Shown here: one piece after another, positions 43,143 through 57,223 of the stretch
How positions within the stretch are numbered: position 1 is the first letter of the stretch
How the letters are laid out: the number at the start of each line of letters is the position of its first letter
Source: a virus
Length of the DNA: 57,228 nucleotides
Virus record (IMG/VR): IMGVR_UViG_3300030117_002543
Coordinates: 1-57,228 of that record
Reading direction: 5' to 3' (one strand)
The notes under the pieces: model-generated
Database searches by the model: none
What the model saw: only the letters and a program-made list of their open reading frames with translations
Told to the model about the DNA's origin: nothing
Translations under genes and position numbers: made by a program

Positions 43143-43168
43143 GCAAAGCCATATGGTTGTGAACTTTG
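43143..43168. repeat. Palindromic element, copy 1 (degenerate)
   Basis: Core CCATATGG at 43149-43156 with CAAAG at its left and CTTTG at its right; the outer arms are missing and the left spacer is shortened. Same elements as copies 2-6. Confidence 0.6.
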
Positions 43169-43189
43169 TTTCAACCCTGTTGAATCGGG

Positions 43190-43270
43190 CTAATAAGCCG
43201 TCATCGTCATCATTGCAATCATATGAACAGCGAAGCATATCACAATTACATTCAATACATCTTTATTCAT
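43190..43270 (-). CDS. Possible 26-residue membrane peptide
   Basis: ATG 43270 follows the previous stop by one base, with GAGGG upstream. The product is one hydrophobic helix (VLNVIVICFAVHMIAMMTM). It is very short and only weakly supported by coupling and hydrophobicity. Confidence 0.3.
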   Translation of the reverse strand: MNKDVLNVIVICFAVHMIAMMTMTAY

Positions 43271-43271
43271 T

Positions 43272-43445
43272 TTACATGCCCTCGTATCTGTCCTTTTCTG
43301 CTTGCAATGCTGATTTGAACCTGTCACGCTTGAAGTTCGCGTTTGTCTCTGATAATCTGACTATCATCCACTCTTCTTGAACCTCATCGAGGTTGAGTTC
43401 TGCCATCAGGCTAACCAACCAGTTGAAATGTCTCCTCTGAAACAT
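43272..43445 (-). CDS. 57-residue helical protein, unknown
   Basis: ATG 43445 overlaps the preceding stop (TAATG), so it is probably translated by coupling. It is a charged two-helix protein (WLVSLMAELNLDEVQEEW, then FKRDRFKSALQAEKDRYEG). It belongs to the short leftward unit that starts below palindromic copy 2. Function unknown. Confidence 0.6.
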   Translation of the reverse strand: MFQRRHFNWLVSLMAELNLDEVQEEWMIVRLSETNANFKRDRFKSALQAEKDRYEGM

Positions 43446-43627
43446 TAGTTCCCCTCCTTCTCATACTGCTTCTCATAACTCTCAACGTCTTCACAAGTAC
43501 AGTCAAGACCGCAGTTCTCACCCTCAAAACCACACTCCTCACAGTAGGCATCCTGAATTAGGCCAAGGTAAGCCCCGGTTATCTCCAAGGACTCGCCACA
43601 ACACTCACACTCCATATCGTAATACAT
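43445..43627 (-). CDS. Small zinc-ribbon protein in the control region
   Basis: 60 residues from ATG 43627 (the TTG before it is weaker). Eight cysteines: CECCGE at ~6-11, YCEECGF at ~28-34, then CGLDCTC. It could bind two metal ions. It is the first gene after palindromic copy 2, about 20 bases from its edge, so that element probably controls it. It might be an early regulator (inference). Confidence 0.65.
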   Translation of the reverse strand: MYYDMECECCGESLEITGAYLGLIQDAYCEECGFEGENCGLDCTCEDVESYEKQYEKEGN

Positions 43628-43649
43628 CAACTAGGGGTATTCTCAACAT

Positions 43650-43710
43650 CTTATAGGGTGCGTTTACAAAGTTTACTTACCATATGGTAGTAGGACTTTG
43701 GCTAACTACC
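43650..43710. repeat. Palindromic element, copy 2
   Basis: CTTATAGGG (43650-43658), ACAAAGT, core TACCATATGGTA at 43678-43689, ACTTTG and CTACC. It stands just upstream of the leftward zinc-ribbon gene and at the far end of the putative large RNA. Confidence 0.75.
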
Positions 43711-44503
43711 TTGTATTTTTTAGGAACGTCTGGAAACAGTGGAAGCAATTTCATGTTTCGACGTTGGAGGGACTAGCATTACGGCGTGGAGTGTTCAACT
43801 AGTATTCTCCGCGTCTTACACCTAGTTATCGCATTGCGAGTAAGCAATCTTGTCGGGCCTTACCCCGGCTGGCTTCTTGTTTCCTTCAGTTCCTATAGGA
43901 ATCTGTCTGGTGTCTTGATAAGGGGTCTTCTCATGGTTCGTTACGGGGATTGCCGCCCCCTGAATGAGTTCGCGCTATCCCGGAGGACTCTCAAACTACT
44001 AATGCATGTACATCGACTTACCTTATCTAATGCCTAAGCGAAAGGACACCTCTCTCGCGTCTTTGTCTCTAACCCTCTCCCATGGGTATCAACAGCCAAC
44101 CTCTCTCTGTCGAGATTCAGAAGGCCGACATTCGGAATTAAAGGAGTGTGAAGGGAACGTCAGGAGTAGAGGACATCATCTCGGAGGTGTTGGGAAGGGA
44201 GTTCACTCAAGACCTCAACCTTCGACCAAGCGCACCTCTAGTGTCTTAGCATCCATCAGTTCCGTGTGGAATGTGATTGGTGGTAGCCGGGACTTATGTG
44301 TACCCGGAAGTTTCCTGTCCTCCTACATAATTGCAGAATTACCGAAACCGCCAATATTAGACTCGTTAGTGTCCTTTACAACGACTCCTATCTCTAGGTG
44401 TGATTGCCCCACGACAGGGAATATTGCACGTTACCCCGGAGGAGGGGTATTCCGTCACTACCGTACTAGTCCGTCAACTAGCAATAAGGGCATGTATAAT
44501 TGT
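43711..44503 (-). ncRNA. Candidate large structured non-coding RNA (~790 nt)
   Basis: Almost 800 bases flanked by palindromic copies 2 and 3 and without a minus-strand ORF of any size. They are less AT-rich than the flanks and full of short stable inverted repeats: ATTGC/GCAAT (43833-43848), GGGG/CCCC (43945-43960), CCGGG/CCCGG (44287-44307), CCCC/GGGG (44434-44447). If copy 3 works as a promoter like copies 2, 4 and 5, transcription runs leftward through it. A plus-strand frame of 199 codons exists but crosses copy 3 and does not look like a protein. Strand and function are inferred. Confidence 0.4.
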
Positions 44504-44563
44504 CTTATGAGGTGCGCATACAAAGTTTGCTTACCATATGGTTGTGCTTTGCAGAACCCCTAT
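44504..44563. repeat. Palindromic element, copy 3
   Basis: CTTATGAGG (44504-44512), ACAAAGT, core TACCATATGGT (44532-44542), CTTTG (44547-44551) and ACCCCTA. No protein gene follows in the leftward direction for ~870 bases, only the structured stretch. Confidence 0.75.
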
Positions 44564-44570
44564 TGGAACC

Positions 44571-44655
44571 AAGCCCCGAATGATATTCAGTGCGCCCCTC
44601 CTTGAATCCCATTGTTACAGGATGGGGGGCGGCGAATCACCTATCACCGGGGCTT
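44571..44655 (-). terminator. Nested long hairpin after the 57-residue gene
   Basis: AAGCCCCG (44571-44578) pairs with CGGGGCTT (44648-44655). Inside, GCGCCCC pairs with GGGGGCG and ATCC with GGAT. It follows the stop of the gene at 44660 by four bases in the leftward direction. It may be a terminator, an mRNA end protector or a separate small RNA. Confidence 0.45.
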
Positions 44656-44659
44656 GAGT

Positions 44660-44833
44660 TCACTCTTCCGCGTAGCCGTCAAACCATTGACCACGTTTCT
44701 TCAAGTCTGAGCAAGTGCTACCGGATGTTTCCGGGTCTGAGCAATGCTCCCTAGCCTCTTCAAGAGTAAGTCCTCTCTTGATAACTCTGTCATTTCCTTC
44801 AAACCTGAATCGTATTATCTTGTATGTCGTCAT
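44660..44833 (-). CDS. 57-residue phage-type protein ending in GxWFDGY
   Basis: ATG 44833 directly follows the previous stop (TAAATG). The sequence plan (TTYKIIRFRFEG, then RGLTLEEAREHCSDPETS and a W-F-D-G-Y end) is one I recognise from many small uncharacterised phage proteins, notably of actinobacteriophages, which start Y-K-I-I-R-F and keep LTLEEAxxHCxDPETSS. The function of that family is not known to me. It is the last gene of the unit below copy 4. Confidence 0.75.
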   Translation of the reverse strand: MTTYKIIRFRFEGNDRVIKRGLTLEEAREHCSDPETSGSTCSDLKKRGQWFDGYAEE

Positions 44834-45100
44834 TTATTCTTCCTCCGTTTCTATTGCCACATTGTATAGTGGACCGGGACTTCTTCCCTGCGTACCGGGT
44901 TGGTATATGCCAACATCCATCAACCAGAAGACATATTCTATCCCGGTTTTTATCCCGTAGGCATCTTCTAGTTCCTCGTCGTTGGGGTCATCCCTTGCGA
45001 TTATCCCCTCGTTGACGGTTATGCACCTTCTCATCTCGGTCCTAAGCCACTCGTACTCTTTCTCGTTCAATGTATTCATGCTAGGGTCTTGAATCACCAT
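44834..45100 (-). CDS. Small acidic protein below palindromic copy 4
   Basis: 88 residues if ATG 45100 is used, which abuts the palindromic element and would be nearly leaderless; ATG 45079, after a GGTGAT, is an alternative. It has a helix at ~10-35 (EYEWLRTEMRRCITVNEG), an acidic turn and an aromatic strand (IEYVFWLMDVGIYQ). Function unknown, probably early or regulatory by position. Confidence 0.6.
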   Translation of the reverse strand: MVIQDPSMNTLNEKEYEWLRTEMRRCITVNEGIIARDDPNDEELEDAYGIKTGIEYVFWLMDVGIYQPGTQGRSPGPLYNVAIETEEE

Positions 45101-45170
45101 CTCTTAAGGTAGCGTCTACAAAGTTGCACTACCATATGGTGGGAACGCTTTGGGGGACCACCTTGAGAAG
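45101..45170. repeat. Palindromic element, copy 4
   Basis: CTTAAGGT (45103-45110), CAAAG, core ACCATATGGT (45131-45140), CTTTG and ACCTTGAG. It lies between the end of the gene at 45181 and the start of the leftward gene at 45100. Confidence 0.75.
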
Positions 45171-45180
45171 TGGAAGGATT

Positions 45181-45576
45181 TTACTCCTCCTCACGACTCT
45201 TTGCGTGTTTCCTCTCAAAATCTCTCATCTTTGTTTCCTCCAATCGAACCAACCAGTTCTTGAACTCGCTGTTAAACTTCCTCTTGTCCCAAGTAGGGAC
45301 ATTGCAAGACCAATCGGCCTCAGCCAATCTCTCACAGAACTCAAGAGTCATAACGTCATAGAAATCTCCCATGTCGTATATCTCATTGGCTAGGTTGACC
45401 ATGAGCATTCTTCGCCTGAACTCAGCGGGAGTCATTTTTACTCCGTATCTATCACCAATGTGACCAACACCCGCTTGACTTGCCAGTATGCCAAAGCCGA
45501 AGCCGTTGACTAGTGAAATCTCTGTACTAGTGAAGCCCTTGTCAGGGCCGTTCTCGATTCCAACTATCAGAGGCAT
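45181..45576 (-). CDS. Unknown 131-residue protein
   Basis: ATG 45576 overlaps the preceding stop (TAATG). The N-terminal ~50 residues are Gly-rich (VNGFGFGILASQAGVGHIG); the rest is helical and charged, with a W at ~88 and ~95 and an Arg/Lys/Glu-rich tail. No motif or family recognised. It is the third gene of the leftward unit that starts at palindromic copy 5. Confidence 0.6.
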   Translation of the reverse strand: MPLIVGIENGPDKGFTSTEISLVNGFGFGILASQAGVGHIGDRYGVKMTPAEFRRRMLMVNLANEIYDMGDFYDVMTLEFCERLAEADWSCNVPTWDKRKFNSEFKNWLVRLEETKMRDFERKHAKSREEE

Positions 45577-45758
45577 TAAAGGTTCATCTCCCTGAATGCG
45601 ACTAGAGCGGCTTTCAACTCTGCGAGTGATTCCGCTAGGTCATCACCACGAACTCTTAGGCTCTTGATGATAATCACGTGGTCTGAACCAGACTTGGAAT
45701 GTCCAACTTCCAGTTCGTACTTGTATGGCTTTATCATTTCTTTTGCTTCTGTTATCAT
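45576..45758 (-). CDS. Small alpha/beta protein, unknown
   Basis: 60 residues from ATG 45758, overlapping the previous stop by four bases. Predicted plan: strand YKYELEVGHSK, strand HVIIIKSLRVRG, helix DLAESLAELKAALVAF. Part of the three-gene leftward unit below copy 5. Function unknown. Confidence 0.6.
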   Translation of the reverse strand: MITEAKEMIKPYKYELEVGHSKSGSDHVIIIKSLRVRGDDLAESLAELKAALVAFREMNL

Positions 45759-45991
45759 TCTTCTTCATCTCCTGTTAATATCATATCTTTCTTGTATTCG
45801 GCTAGAGTGACCCACTCGGTCTTAACGGTCAAGGACAATCGAATCATGCTTCCATAGACCTTTTCGGCAAATTCACCGAGGCTTTCCCAGTATTCAATCA
45901 GTTCTTCTTTGCTGTCGAAGTAGACAACGGTTCTCTTCTCTATTTCTCCACCTGCTCTGATGTAGGTGTCGTATTCAATCTCTGTTCTCAT
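45755..45991 (-). CDS. First gene leftward from the divergent promoter, unknown
   Basis: 78 residues from ATG 45991; a TTG two codons earlier is weaker. Plan: strand IEYDTYIRAGG, strand RTVVYFDSKEELIEYW, then MIRLSLTVKTEWVTLAEY. It starts about 20 bases from palindromic copy 5 with no strong ribosome-binding site. Function unknown, probably early. Confidence 0.6.
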   Translation of the reverse strand: MRTEIEYDTYIRAGGEIEKRTVVYFDSKEELIEYWESLGEFAEKVYGSMIRLSLTVKTEWVTLAEYKKDMILTGDEEE

Positions 45992-46011
45992 GTCCAACAG
46001 ATTTTTTCAGC

Positions 46012-46080
46012 CTTATGAGGGTACGCCGACAAAGTGTCTTACCATATGGTAGTACAACTTTGTAAGTGCTACCTCATAAG
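46012..46080. repeat. Palindromic element, copy 5 (most complete), in the divergent promoter
   Basis: Three nested inverted pairs share one centre at 46045/46046: CTTATGAGG (46012-46020) with CCTCATAAG (46072-46080), ACAAAGT (46029-46035) with ACTTTGT (46057-46063), and TACCATATGGTA (46040-46051). It lies between the divergent genes at 45991 (leftward) and 46141 (rightward), so it is well placed to control both. Confidence 0.85.
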
Positions 46081-46140
46081 ACTTAGTTCAGGCTCTTGGA
46101 TGTCGGGAAAGACACAAACTAACTAAGGAGAGAAAGAAAT

Positions 46141-46602
46141 ATGGCACAAATGGAAAATTGGAATGAATTTAAGGACACCGTGAACAGTTTCCTAAAGGGT
46201 GGTTCAGTCGATGAGATGACTGCTTCCACCGTTGGGGTACTCATCGGTAAAGGAGACAACAACATAACGACACAGACGAAGGTGACCTCGGCAATCAAGA
46301 CCATGCTAGAGGACTTCGATGGCGCACCAGTGGGCAGGGTATCCGCTCTAAACGGTGAGGCATTGACTACCTTCACTCAGGCAAGCGAGGCAATCAGGGC
46401 GGTTTCAACCGTCTTCGATTCTCACCCTGCACTAAAGGGACTCGTTCTTCCAAACGGGAGGAGCAAGATATCGCACTTCCCCGATGGTGATGCATGGGCA
46501 GACTTCTTGATTGGAGTCATGCGCAGACACGCAATCTCAGCAAGCAAGGCTGGCTGGGATGGCTCTGCCGACAGCCTAGTGGCTTTTCAGGAGGCTAACT
46601 AA
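46141..46602 (+). CDS. First rightward gene; possible paralogue of the gene at 49244
   Basis: 153 residues from ATG 46141 (AAGGAGAGAAAGAA upstream). Its layout matches the gene at 49244: a GDN turn, a helix with SAIKTMLEDF, then DSHPALKGLVLPNGRSK and a long helix. The other protein has GDN, SAIRTCFSDI and NSPQMQQLLVRNKRS at the same places. Strongly placed next to the best palindrome, so likely early. Function unknown. Confidence 0.65.
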   Translation: MAQMENWNEFKDTVNSFLKGGSVDEMTASTVGVLIGKGDNNITTQTKVTSAIKTMLEDFDGAPVGRVSALNGEALTTFTQASEAIRAVSTVFDSHPALKGLVLPNGRSKISHFPDGDAWADFLIGVMRRHAISASKAGWDGSADSLVAFQEAN

Positions 46603-46642
46603 GTCGGTGATGTTGTCTTCCCGGCACACATCAGGGTGAATG

Positions 46643-46674
46643 CCAAAGTCTCCCACCATATGGTAGCAACTTTT
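46643..46674. repeat. Palindromic element, copy 6 (core and inner arms)
   Basis: CAAAGT (46644-46649), core ACCATATGGTA (46655-46665) and ACTTT (46669-46673); no outer arms. It stands in the gap after the first rightward gene. A half-like sequence, GGGCGCGTTTAAAAG, follows at about 46717. Confidence 0.65.
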
Positions 46675-46875: not shown

Positions 46876-47094
<219 letters not shown>

Positions 47095-56010: not shown

Positions 56011-57223
56011 TGGTGGACAGGAAGATACGACATCCTTCCTGATGCGTGTCAATGGTGTTAGATGGAAACCCGGCATGAGACCAAACCGCTTTGGTGAGAG
56101 AACTCTAAGAGTTCCTCAATTGGACATAAGAAGTAGGTTCTCCAAGACACTAGACCCTATGACGGAGAACATCGCTTACACAATCAGGCAAGTTTTGATT
56201 CCAAACACACACGGAAGGAGAAGCAGGTACTATAGTTACGATAACAGTGACTATGAGAAGTGGACTACTATTATCACCTTCAAGAGAGATGATGGGGATG
56301 CTATGATATGGATACAGAAAAACAAGACGGTGTATACCATGAACAGTCAGAGGATGTCATTGAACGACATATCACTGGCCTTGGCTAAGATAATCTTCAG
56401 GAGCGTGGTAGATAGAAGTGCAGTCAGTCTTGAAGAGTACATAGACAGAGTGATTGAGACTCCACCACATGTGATGTATGCTCTAGAGAACAGAACGCCA
56501 TACGTGTTTTGGGATGGTGGCACAAGATGTGAAGTCAGAATCAACACGAAGTTGGTAGGCAAGAAGGATGTCGCACTTGAGATATCCGAAGGAGTATGGG
56601 GTTCAATGTCCGTATCAGACCTGAACACGTTCGTGAACACGTTCGGATTGAACTCAAGCCGCTCCAAGAAGTGGTATCGAATATCTCCTTCAAGACTGTG
56701 GACAGCACTCATGGGTGAGGAGCCATCCGAGAGTCAGAAGAAACTGATGATTGCGTGGTTGCTACAGAACCGGACTCAGAAGATGGTCGAGGAGAGAGCA
56801 TACGAGTTGGTCTACGAACTGGCTGATGAGTTTGAGAACATCCAAGTGGTGATACATGAGGGATACATGGCTCTGTTCGTCAGGGGTATCCATGCTGATT
56901 GGATGATTGCTGATGCCAACAAGGGTTGGAAGCAAGGACATCAGAATGTCAACACCTACTATTGGGATGGTAGAAAGTGGACAGGACCGATTTGCATCGA
57001 CAACCTACATCACAACTCTAGCATTGGTGACCAACTGTCATCAAGAGCAATGATGTTGATGAATGACAAGGGTGCTGGTGAGATGATATACACACTCAGG
57101 GGACTACAACCAATGGAGCAAGAGTGGTACGGCAAGCATCGCTACGACAGAGTGCTGATTCCTTATGACAAGAGAAAGGATAGGAAACTCAAGACAATCG
57201 ATTACGGAGCGTTGAACAAATGA
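55976..57223 (+). CDS. Unknown 416-residue protein
   Basis: From ATG 55976 (ATGGTGATTATT upstream; ATG 55982 is also possible), overlapping the previous gene by ~35 bases, to a stop just before the window end. Mixed alpha/beta with many aromatic residues; repeated strand-turn segments in the middle (IITFKRDDGDAMIWIQKN) and a basic C terminus. No motif or family recognised. It closes the rightward operon in this window. Confidence 0.65.
   Translation: MKMKFTIPRTGDGGQEDTTSFLMRVNGVRWKPGMRPNRFGERTLRVPQLDIRSRFSKTLDPMTENIAYTIRQVLIPNTHGRRSRYYSYDNSDYEKWTTIITFKRDDGDAMIWIQKNKTVYTMNSQRMSLNDISLALAKIIFRSVVDRSAVSLEEYIDRVIETPPHVMYALENRTPYVFWDGGTRCEVRINTKLVGKKDVALEISEGVWGSMSVSDLNTFVNTFGLNSSRSKKWYRISPSRLWTALMGEEPSESQKKLMIAWLLQNRTQKMVEERAYELVYELADEFENIQVVIHEGYMALFVRGIHADWMIADANKGWKQGHQNVNTYYWDGRKWTGPICIDNLHHNSSIGDQLSSRAMMLMNDKGAGEMIYTLRGLQPMEQEWYGKHRYDRVLIPYDKRKDRKLKTIDYGALNK

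Follow-up and report, generated by a model that had tools for sequence, protein, structure and literature searches.

Six copies of one intergenic element punctuate the control region of the viral record IMGVR_UViG_3300030117_002543, which was analysed at its full length of 57,228 nt (the window). We consider it probable, at roughly 0.7, that these copies are outward-facing promoters with a DNA hairpin as upstream element, and that they double as the joints of a gene-cassette array. Promoter activity is deduced from the sequence, from which the predicted starts were also placed. In related viruses the element is a rearrangement joint for small genes. The virus itself is probably a magrovirus, i.e., a tailed virus of marine archaea.

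All six copies reported in the first-pass annotation were confirmed in the window, although the positions given there mark outer or inner arms and not the cores. The core is a perfect 10-bp palindrome and reads ACCATATGGT in copies 2–6 and GCCATATGGT in copy 1. With one mismatch at most, the window contains 8 core matches, compared to 1.67 ± 1.22 in shuffled sequences (0 of 100 shuffles reached 8), and six of the eight fall inside 3.5 kb. Copy 5 carries the arms ACAAAGT/ACTTTGT and the outer arms CTTATGAGG/CCTCATAAG, just as described earlier. The arms are altered or absent in the other copies, with no proper arm on the left of copy 1 or on the right of copy 6, and arm spacing differs by several nt among copies. 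Copies 2, 4, and 5 had been placed upstream of small leftward genes, and the predicted ATGs of these genes are indeed found 56.5, 56.5, and 54.5 nt from the respective centres, while copies 1 and 6 have no obvious target gene. Random occurrence inside coding regions had been named beforehand as an argument against a regulatory element; only 31 of 529 cores lie in predicted genes, compared to 87.5% of random positions. The parts of the locus are listed below.

43148–43176, plus strand: copy 1, core GCCATATGGT (43148–43157) with right hairpin GGTTGTGAACTTTGTTTCAACC (43155–43176; DNA fold −2.6 kcal/mol); the left half is degenerate and forms no triloop hairpin, and no start codon is found at 50–60 nt from this copy
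43445–43627, minus strand: small zinc-ribbon-like ORF of 60 aa (gene model, family 18), predicted to be driven by copy 2
43650–43710, minus strand: copy 2, core 43679–43688, leftward half with TATA-like box CTATAAG (43656–43650); predicted leaderless start at ATG 43627, 56.5 nt from the centre
44277–44483, minus strand: manA RNA (RF01745), whose 5' end and the copy 3 centre are 54.5 nt apart
44504–44558, minus strand: copy 3, core 44533–44542, leftward half with TCATAAG (44510–44504); right hairpin 44540–44558 (−4.2 kcal/mol)
44834–45079, minus strand: unit gene under copy 4, missing from the close relative L121
45101–45162, minus strand: copy 4, core 45131–45140, leftward hairpin 45133–45108 (GGTAGTG...CGCTACC) followed by TTAAGAG; predicted start at ATG 45079, 56.5 nt from the centre
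45181–45758, minus strand: a further pair of small genes, of 131 aa (family 9) and 60 aa (family 1), both pointing leftward and located downstream of the putative leftward promoter of copy 5
45755–45991, minus strand: gene next to copy 5 on its leftward side, with ATG 45991 as predicted leaderless start (54.5 nt to the centre)
46012–46080, no strand assigned: copy 5, core 46041–46050, both halves complete, leftward CTCATAAG (46019–46012) and rightward TCATAAG (46074–46080); predicted divergent promoter
46141–46602, plus strand: hallmark gene of the array, flanked by copies 5 and 6; it belongs to family 0, encodes an all-helical protein of 153 aa, and is without a known relative
46635–46664, no strand assigned: copy 6, core 46655–46664 with left hairpin GGTGGGAGACTTTGGCATTCACC (46657–46635); the right half is degenerate

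Pfam, PHROGs, and PDB sequence and fold searches gave no match pointing to a function of family 0; one viral match, which carries no name, was returned by a fold search. The control region had no match in a search against phage DNA.

The copies had been interpreted as a tripartite palindrome. The term fits copy 5 well enough, yet it does not describe what is conserved across relatives, where symmetry of left against right beyond the core was no greater than in shuffles and the halves are internally self-complementary. Each half makes a hairpin of its own, GGT-x-RC(TTT)GY-y-ACC, and two such hairpins are joined back to back via ATAT. Stem bases covary within halves, even inside single genomes, and not between halves. 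The first pair of x and y is complementary in 70% of cases compared to 32% after shuffling, x and y co-vary in length (rho 0.61), and the covariation score is 0.306, as against 0.110 ± 0.021 in shuffles (0 of 500 as high) and at most 0.138 in slid controls. At least two pair types occur at the first position in 48 of 55 genomes. When shuffling was confined to the inside of genomes, the z values were 15.3, 11.1, 6.2, 3.0, and 11.1, and drifting specificity of a transcription factor was rejected on this ground as the cause of covariation. Divergent sites, whose hairpins are part of neither of the two transcripts, showed the same covariation. On the outward strand, G-A (.90) and G-T (.72) mismatches are tolerated better than C-T (.46) and A-C (.43), and this pattern points to a hairpin on the outward, TTT-loop strand. 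We infer from the sequence patterns that the hairpin acts as DNA and not as RNA. By DNA parameters the hairpins are short and weak, with a median of −1.65 kcal/mol and 24% at or below −3, and some halves in the window, the left of copy 2 and the right of copy 6, have none.

Start codons peak about 50–59 nt from the centre, with 123 found and approximately 17 expected by control. Around 135 starts there is a CC and then, at −30 to −22, a box rich in A and T, with a pyrimidine at −1 (91%) and A at +1, whereas 342 gene starts outside the arrays, taken as control, have a Shine-Dalgarno signature and no box. A box about 25 nt upstream, pyrimidine-purine at −1/+1, and no Shine-Dalgarno are the sequence traits of archaeal leaderless TATA promoters. 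The TATA-like box is present in 60% of gene-facing halves but drops to 12% where the half looks onto the end of a gene; 71% of the latter halves retain CTTTG. The 5' end of manA provides an independent marker of transcription start, and it lies 54.5 nt from the centre in three viruses, the window, L089, and L121. It is not a general array feature: a scan of 29 further loci showed manA only in the window and in these two viruses, its closest relatives. About 40 sites are located between convergent genes, and many sites have no gene start at 50–75 nt; some of the sites without a gene start may serve unannotated RNAs. Read from the centre outwards, a promoter would comprise half of the ACC-ATAT-GGT core, the hairpin GGT-x-RC-TTT-GY-y-ACC, and, on the gene-starting side, the TATA-like box. 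The box would stand about 25 nt before the start, and transcription would begin at a distance of about 54 nt from the centre, in many cases right at the ATG. The hairpin on the outward strand, its stem complementarity being maintained, may be extruded or captured by protein and recognised by a factor that brings in the RNA polymerase of the host; the virus-encoded TFB is a candidate for this factor. Such promoters would presumably be early ones.

An operator/promoter was among the functions first proposed for the element, and the promoter part of that proposal agrees with the intergenic placement, the TATA-like box, and the fixed distance to ATGs and to the manA 5' end. The plain operator, on which a dimeric virus transcription factor would bind the duplex core and arms while the hairpin never forms, did not hold up and is decidedly unlikely. 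It would account for the perfect 10-bp core, the two-fold arms, and the intergenic placement, but arm spacing varies by several nt to many bases, the x and y lengths are coupled, the halves vary independently and are not symmetric beyond the arms, and covariation is seen within halves in single genomes, most of which (48/55) contain several pair types, unexpected for a dimer of fixed specificity. Hairpins formed in read-through transcripts, acting as terminator, processing signal, or 3'-end stabiliser in the manner of the T4 PeSL stem-loop, would suit the many units arranged in tandem and the elements that often lie 30–70 nt past a stop codon. This RNA-level role is nevertheless quite improbable, being disfavoured both by the divergent sites, in which hairpins and covariation are kept, and by the strand pattern, since mismatch tolerance tracks the outward strand whatever the direction of transcription and G-T lacks the preference expected of G-U in RNA.

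Related magrovirus-like viruses have 3–13 copies each. In almost every case their genome, of about 95 kb, holds them in one cluster that spans about 7 kb at most, and this single cluster sits near the switch between two gene blocks. Family B polymerase was found in 24 of 24 relatives, mostly in two pieces. A split family B polymerase, a genome of approximately 90–100 kb, and two divergent gene blocks are the traits of Magrovirus (order Magrovirales), as judged on the relatives, the window being a 57 kb fragment. The element is virus-specific. Among 84,980 cellular genomes the pattern gave only 43 isolated matches, in unrelated taxa and none in Poseidoniales, which is no more than chance, and a host origin was rejected. 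Magroviruses, which infect uncultured archaea of the surface ocean, are widespread, and the literature we examined contains nothing on how their genes are expressed or diversified. The element offers a genome-wide rule for finding probable magrovirus start sites and candidate host-takeover genes, a case of base-pair covariation in promoter DNA pointing to the hairpin as the signal, and a coupling of gene expression and gene shuffling in one symmetric joint.

The closest concepts are the T4 PeSLs, the intergenic-repeat promoters of haloviruses, and the hairpin promoters of N4; the combination is new. As cited in PMC3950731 and PMC4503421, these promoter-early stem-loops of T4-type phages are regulatory cassettes of promoter plus stem-loop that separate small early genes and allow modular shuffling; the title of Comeau (2014) describes them as promoter-terminator motifs, and they belong to bacterial phages. 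Like them, the present element combines an intergenic promoter and a stem-loop in a variable region, with gene shuffling whose breakpoints fall at the cores. Unlike them, it has two back-to-back hairpins that face both ways upstream of archaeal TATA boxes, instead of a bacterial sigma70 promoter; its base pairing covaries; exchange at a symmetric 10-bp core permits inversion; and a terminator role finds no support, the hairpin being kept in divergent sites. Intergenic repeats are also known from the archaeal tailed viruses HF1 and HF2, with promoter activity proven for HF2 (PMC8707807), but the HF2 repeats occupy the same places, in the same orientation, in relatives, and no description presents them as paired hairpins. 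HGTV-1 has an intergenic motif that comprises a TATA box and an inverted repeat and has been compared to PeSLs; it is not the same element, as its inverted repeat (CTCCTCGTG...CACGAGGAG) is a single one and the 84 kb examined contain no ACCATATGGT core. The early promoters used by the N4 virion RNA polymerase contain short DNA hairpins with a triloop, whose variable stem bases count only by pairing and whose extrusion is driven by supercoiling (PMC4496689). The stem bases of our element are likewise free if paired, and its triloop is closed by C-G, but N4 has one hairpin at −11 for a single-subunit phage RNAP, whereas ours occupy approximately −30 to −52 and precede the TATA-like box. The single-subunit RNAP profile PF00940 matched 0 of 23 genomes, its positive control being likewise blank.

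Units in the relatives have been exchanged, inverted, and permuted with core precision. Out of 230 alignment breaks, 40 are no more than 8 nt away from a core in each of the two sequences (0 under the null), and L020 and L061 swap halves exactly at the core. The core doubles as exchange point because it is symmetric and the sole sequence common to all copies. On this reading, small genes are gained, lost, moved, and inverted singly or a few at a time as units, through breakpoints in the core, each unit retaining its own half-promoter, and the route of exchange may be homologous or site-specific. Hairpin-forming sites that delimit shuffling units of small genes are familiar from integrons, as attC. 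That the element is primarily a site-specific recombination system, an integron-like cassette joint with promoters as cassette passengers, is unlikely, even though core-precise exchange, inversion, permutation, and attC-like hairpins speak for it. Here every unit has a promoter of its own and inverts freely, the TATA box and the start spacing are conserved, and homologous exchange between elements that share only the core would break there as well. Neither an IntI-type tyrosine recombinase (PF00589; search control 14/14 found) nor members of the serine recombinase and Y1 transposase families (PF00239, PF01797) were found in the 24 genomes. Replication-origin or partition repeats, in the form of an iteron-like cluster, would match the one cluster per genome near the switch of two gene blocks, but 3–13 copies without fixed spacing, interspersed with genes and shuffled, argue otherwise, and TATA boxes, one promoter per unit, and a fixed ATG distance would be left unexplained; this is very improbable. 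Beyond the promoter-and-joint reading that we prefer, one may tentatively propose that supercoil-extruded hairpins are the early-promoter signal of magroviruses, read by a viral factor such as a divergent viral TFB, that the core is the dedicated recombination site of a further enzyme, and that the locus is a self-shuffling array of promoter-carrying cassettes, an archaeal viral counterpart of the integron with N4-like promoters; this extension is possible but doubtful. The segment 46040–46665 of the window, with the family 0 gene, is inverted in L031 and L044, and in L121 the unit gene of copy 4 is replaced by the next gene with the promoter-to-ATG spacing unchanged.

The six copies of a symmetric element claimed by the first-pass annotation were all found where it had placed them, at window positions 43143-46674, between the leftward genes, with head, tail and packaging functions among them, and the rightward genes, which include ribonucleotide reductase. 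The core was an exact ACCATATGGT in five copies and GCCATATGGT in copy 1. Core matches with at most one mismatch numbered eight in the window against 1.67 expected, and none of the shuffles reached eight. The arms described in that annotation were real in copy 5, and partial in the other copies. Past copy 6, ahead of the first rightward gene, a TC-repeat run occupies 47060-47092. The window, a virus record of 57 kb, encodes a major head protein similar to those of haloarchaeal tailed viruses. In IMG/VR its terminase led to 80 or more close relatives, many in the 90-100 kb range, and a family B polymerase was present in 24 of 24 genomes tested, mostly in two pieces, as in magroviruses; no description of the element was found in the magrovirus literature searched. 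On the rightward side, relatives carry a TFB-like gene with a zinc ribbon, plus a cyclin repeat in one case, both near the Pfam cut-offs. The protein that the window encodes at 56273-57106 is homologous, at 41% identity, to the one beside the viral TFB-like gene in the related locus L205; the window stops short of the TFB gene itself. Two related contigs contain tRNA genes (L107, 7089-7172, and L069, 1956-2039, both on the minus strand).

The motif scan over relatives proposed earlier showed that at least 119 viral contig stretches have the pattern ACAAAGT-N4-7-ACCATATGGT; counts from this site set are lower bounds, skewed toward the strict pattern. Among the places listed, each near-complete genome searched had its 3-13 exact cores clustered at one place, spanning no more than about 7 kb; the exceptions, among later-added relatives, were one without a core and one with a single copy at the contig end. 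Cellular genomes gave just 43 scattered single matches, none of them in Poseidoniales. A core accompanied 200 of 204 half-elements and lay near two of the other four. Cores mostly keep out of coding regions, contrary to the refuting condition named at first: by our own, heuristic gene caller, 31 of 529 listed non-redundant cores lay in predicted genes, against 87.5% of random positions. In the related loci L020, L061, L098 and L011, some halves have a CACTAAGCGTG-type inverted repeat where the CTTTG hairpin would otherwise stand; here, too, gene-free intervals of only 100-150 nt separate several cores.

Two features between the cores are referred to below.
44277-44483, minus strand: manA RNA (RF01745), an Rfam match, in an archaeal virus.
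46141-46602, plus strand: gene for an all-helical protein, founding member of an unnamed family (family 0).

At the listed sites, start codons of outward genes clustered 51-59 nt from the core centre. Alignment of 135 such starts on ATG brought out CC (-30 to -28), followed by an A/T box (-27 to -22), then a pyrimidine at position -1 and A at +1, an arrangement resembling that of leaderless archaeal promoters. Other starts form a second group about 62-66 nt from the core centre, which often has GGTGA before ATG and looks leadered. The 342 gene starts away from cores showed a Shine-Dalgarno profile, and the box was absent. The box followed 60% of halves facing a gene but 12% of halves facing a gene end, and CTTTG was kept in 71% of the latter. 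In the window, predicted gene starts at 43627, 45079 and 45991 lie 56.5, 56.5 and 54.5 nt from the core centre. The fourth start is that of the manA RNA, not of a gene, with its Rfam 5' end 54.5 nt from copy 3, the same distance as in the related loci L089 and L121. L121 lacks the gene that the window has under copy 4, and its next gene is shifted to an equal distance from the core (56.5 nt by coordinates).

Outwards from the core, each half reads GGT-x-nCTTTGn-y-ACC. Complementarity of x and y, scored on 450 listed sites less than 80% identical to one another, far exceeded that of shuffles: the first pair was complementary in 70% (shuffled 32%), the second in 52% (shuffled 25%) and the third in 46% (shuffled 31%). 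The lengths of x and y were correlated (rho 0.61). The first pair was enriched in all four Watson-Crick combinations, and CTTTG was mostly flanked by A..T or G..C. Counted independently on 31 halves of equal length, the covariation score was 0.306, compared with 0.110 +/- 0.021; slid controls stayed at or below 0.138. Such covariation could have come from drift of factor specificity between viruses; this was ruled out, since the signal survives a shuffling of letters confined to single genomes (z 15.3, 11.1, 6.2, 3.0, 11.1). Because each half is self-complementary, and left and right halves are no more alike than shuffled ones, the conserved structure is, as read from these alignments, two predicted hairpins side by side, and not the single nested palindrome first described. 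Covariation was unchanged in divergent sites, whose outgoing transcripts do not include the element. G-A and G-T mismatches were tolerated on the outward TTT-loop strand, whereas A-C, C-T and C-C were avoided, and this pattern went with the outward strand whatever the gene context; the stability order of mismatches in DNA is similar. The divergent sites and the strand-bound, DNA-like tolerance together favour a hairpin of DNA on the outward strand. Since predicted hairpin energies are low (median -1.65 kcal/mol), its formation would need a capturing protein or supercoiling.

Relatives differ by insertion, loss, permutation and inversion of the gene units that cores delimit; the window unit 46040-46665, for instance, is inverted in L031 and L044. 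Neighbouring families within a unit kept adjacency in 49% and relative orientation in 85% of comparisons, against 29% and 59% across an element, a contrast that shrinks to 50/91% versus 35/81% when averaged over family pairs. Of 230 ends of nucleotide alignments, 40 had a core no more than 8 nt away in each of the two sequences; the random control had none. Between L020 and L061, whose pieces are 83-96% identical, halves have recombined exactly at the core, inverted and relocated units included. Homologous exchange, annealing and a site-specific enzyme would fit these breakpoints equally well, because the core is the sole sequence common to all copies; three recombinase/transposase families searched in 24 genomes were not found.

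The element has a trait in common with each of the known systems compared and answers to the full definition of none. T4 PeSLs unite a promoter with a stem-loop and bring about shuffling (PMC3950731, PMC4503421), and the units here also shuffle among relatives; an HGTV-1 motif has been likened to T4 PeSLs. The intergenic repeats of HF2 have proven promoter activity and keep their places (PMC8707807), whereas the present units are permuted and inverted. N4 promoters are supercoil-extruded hairpins whose stem bases are free provided they are paired (PMC4496689), and stem-base pairing covaries here too.

The manA RNA was earlier described from marine metagenomes, gamma-proteobacteria and cyanophages (PMC2864571). 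No ORF follows it within its unit in the window, and a doubtful one of 35 aa does in L089. The roughly 560 bases behind it (43711-44276) are without a predicted gene and could be a long non-coding transcript; positions 43906-44140 are absent from L089. The family of 46141-46602 is represented in almost every array: at least 96 of the examined loci have it, each with 1-3 paralogues. No recognisable relatives appeared in Pfam, PHROGs or PDB. The model of its protein is confidently all-helical (pLDDT 89), and the family could supply the regulator or an early effector.
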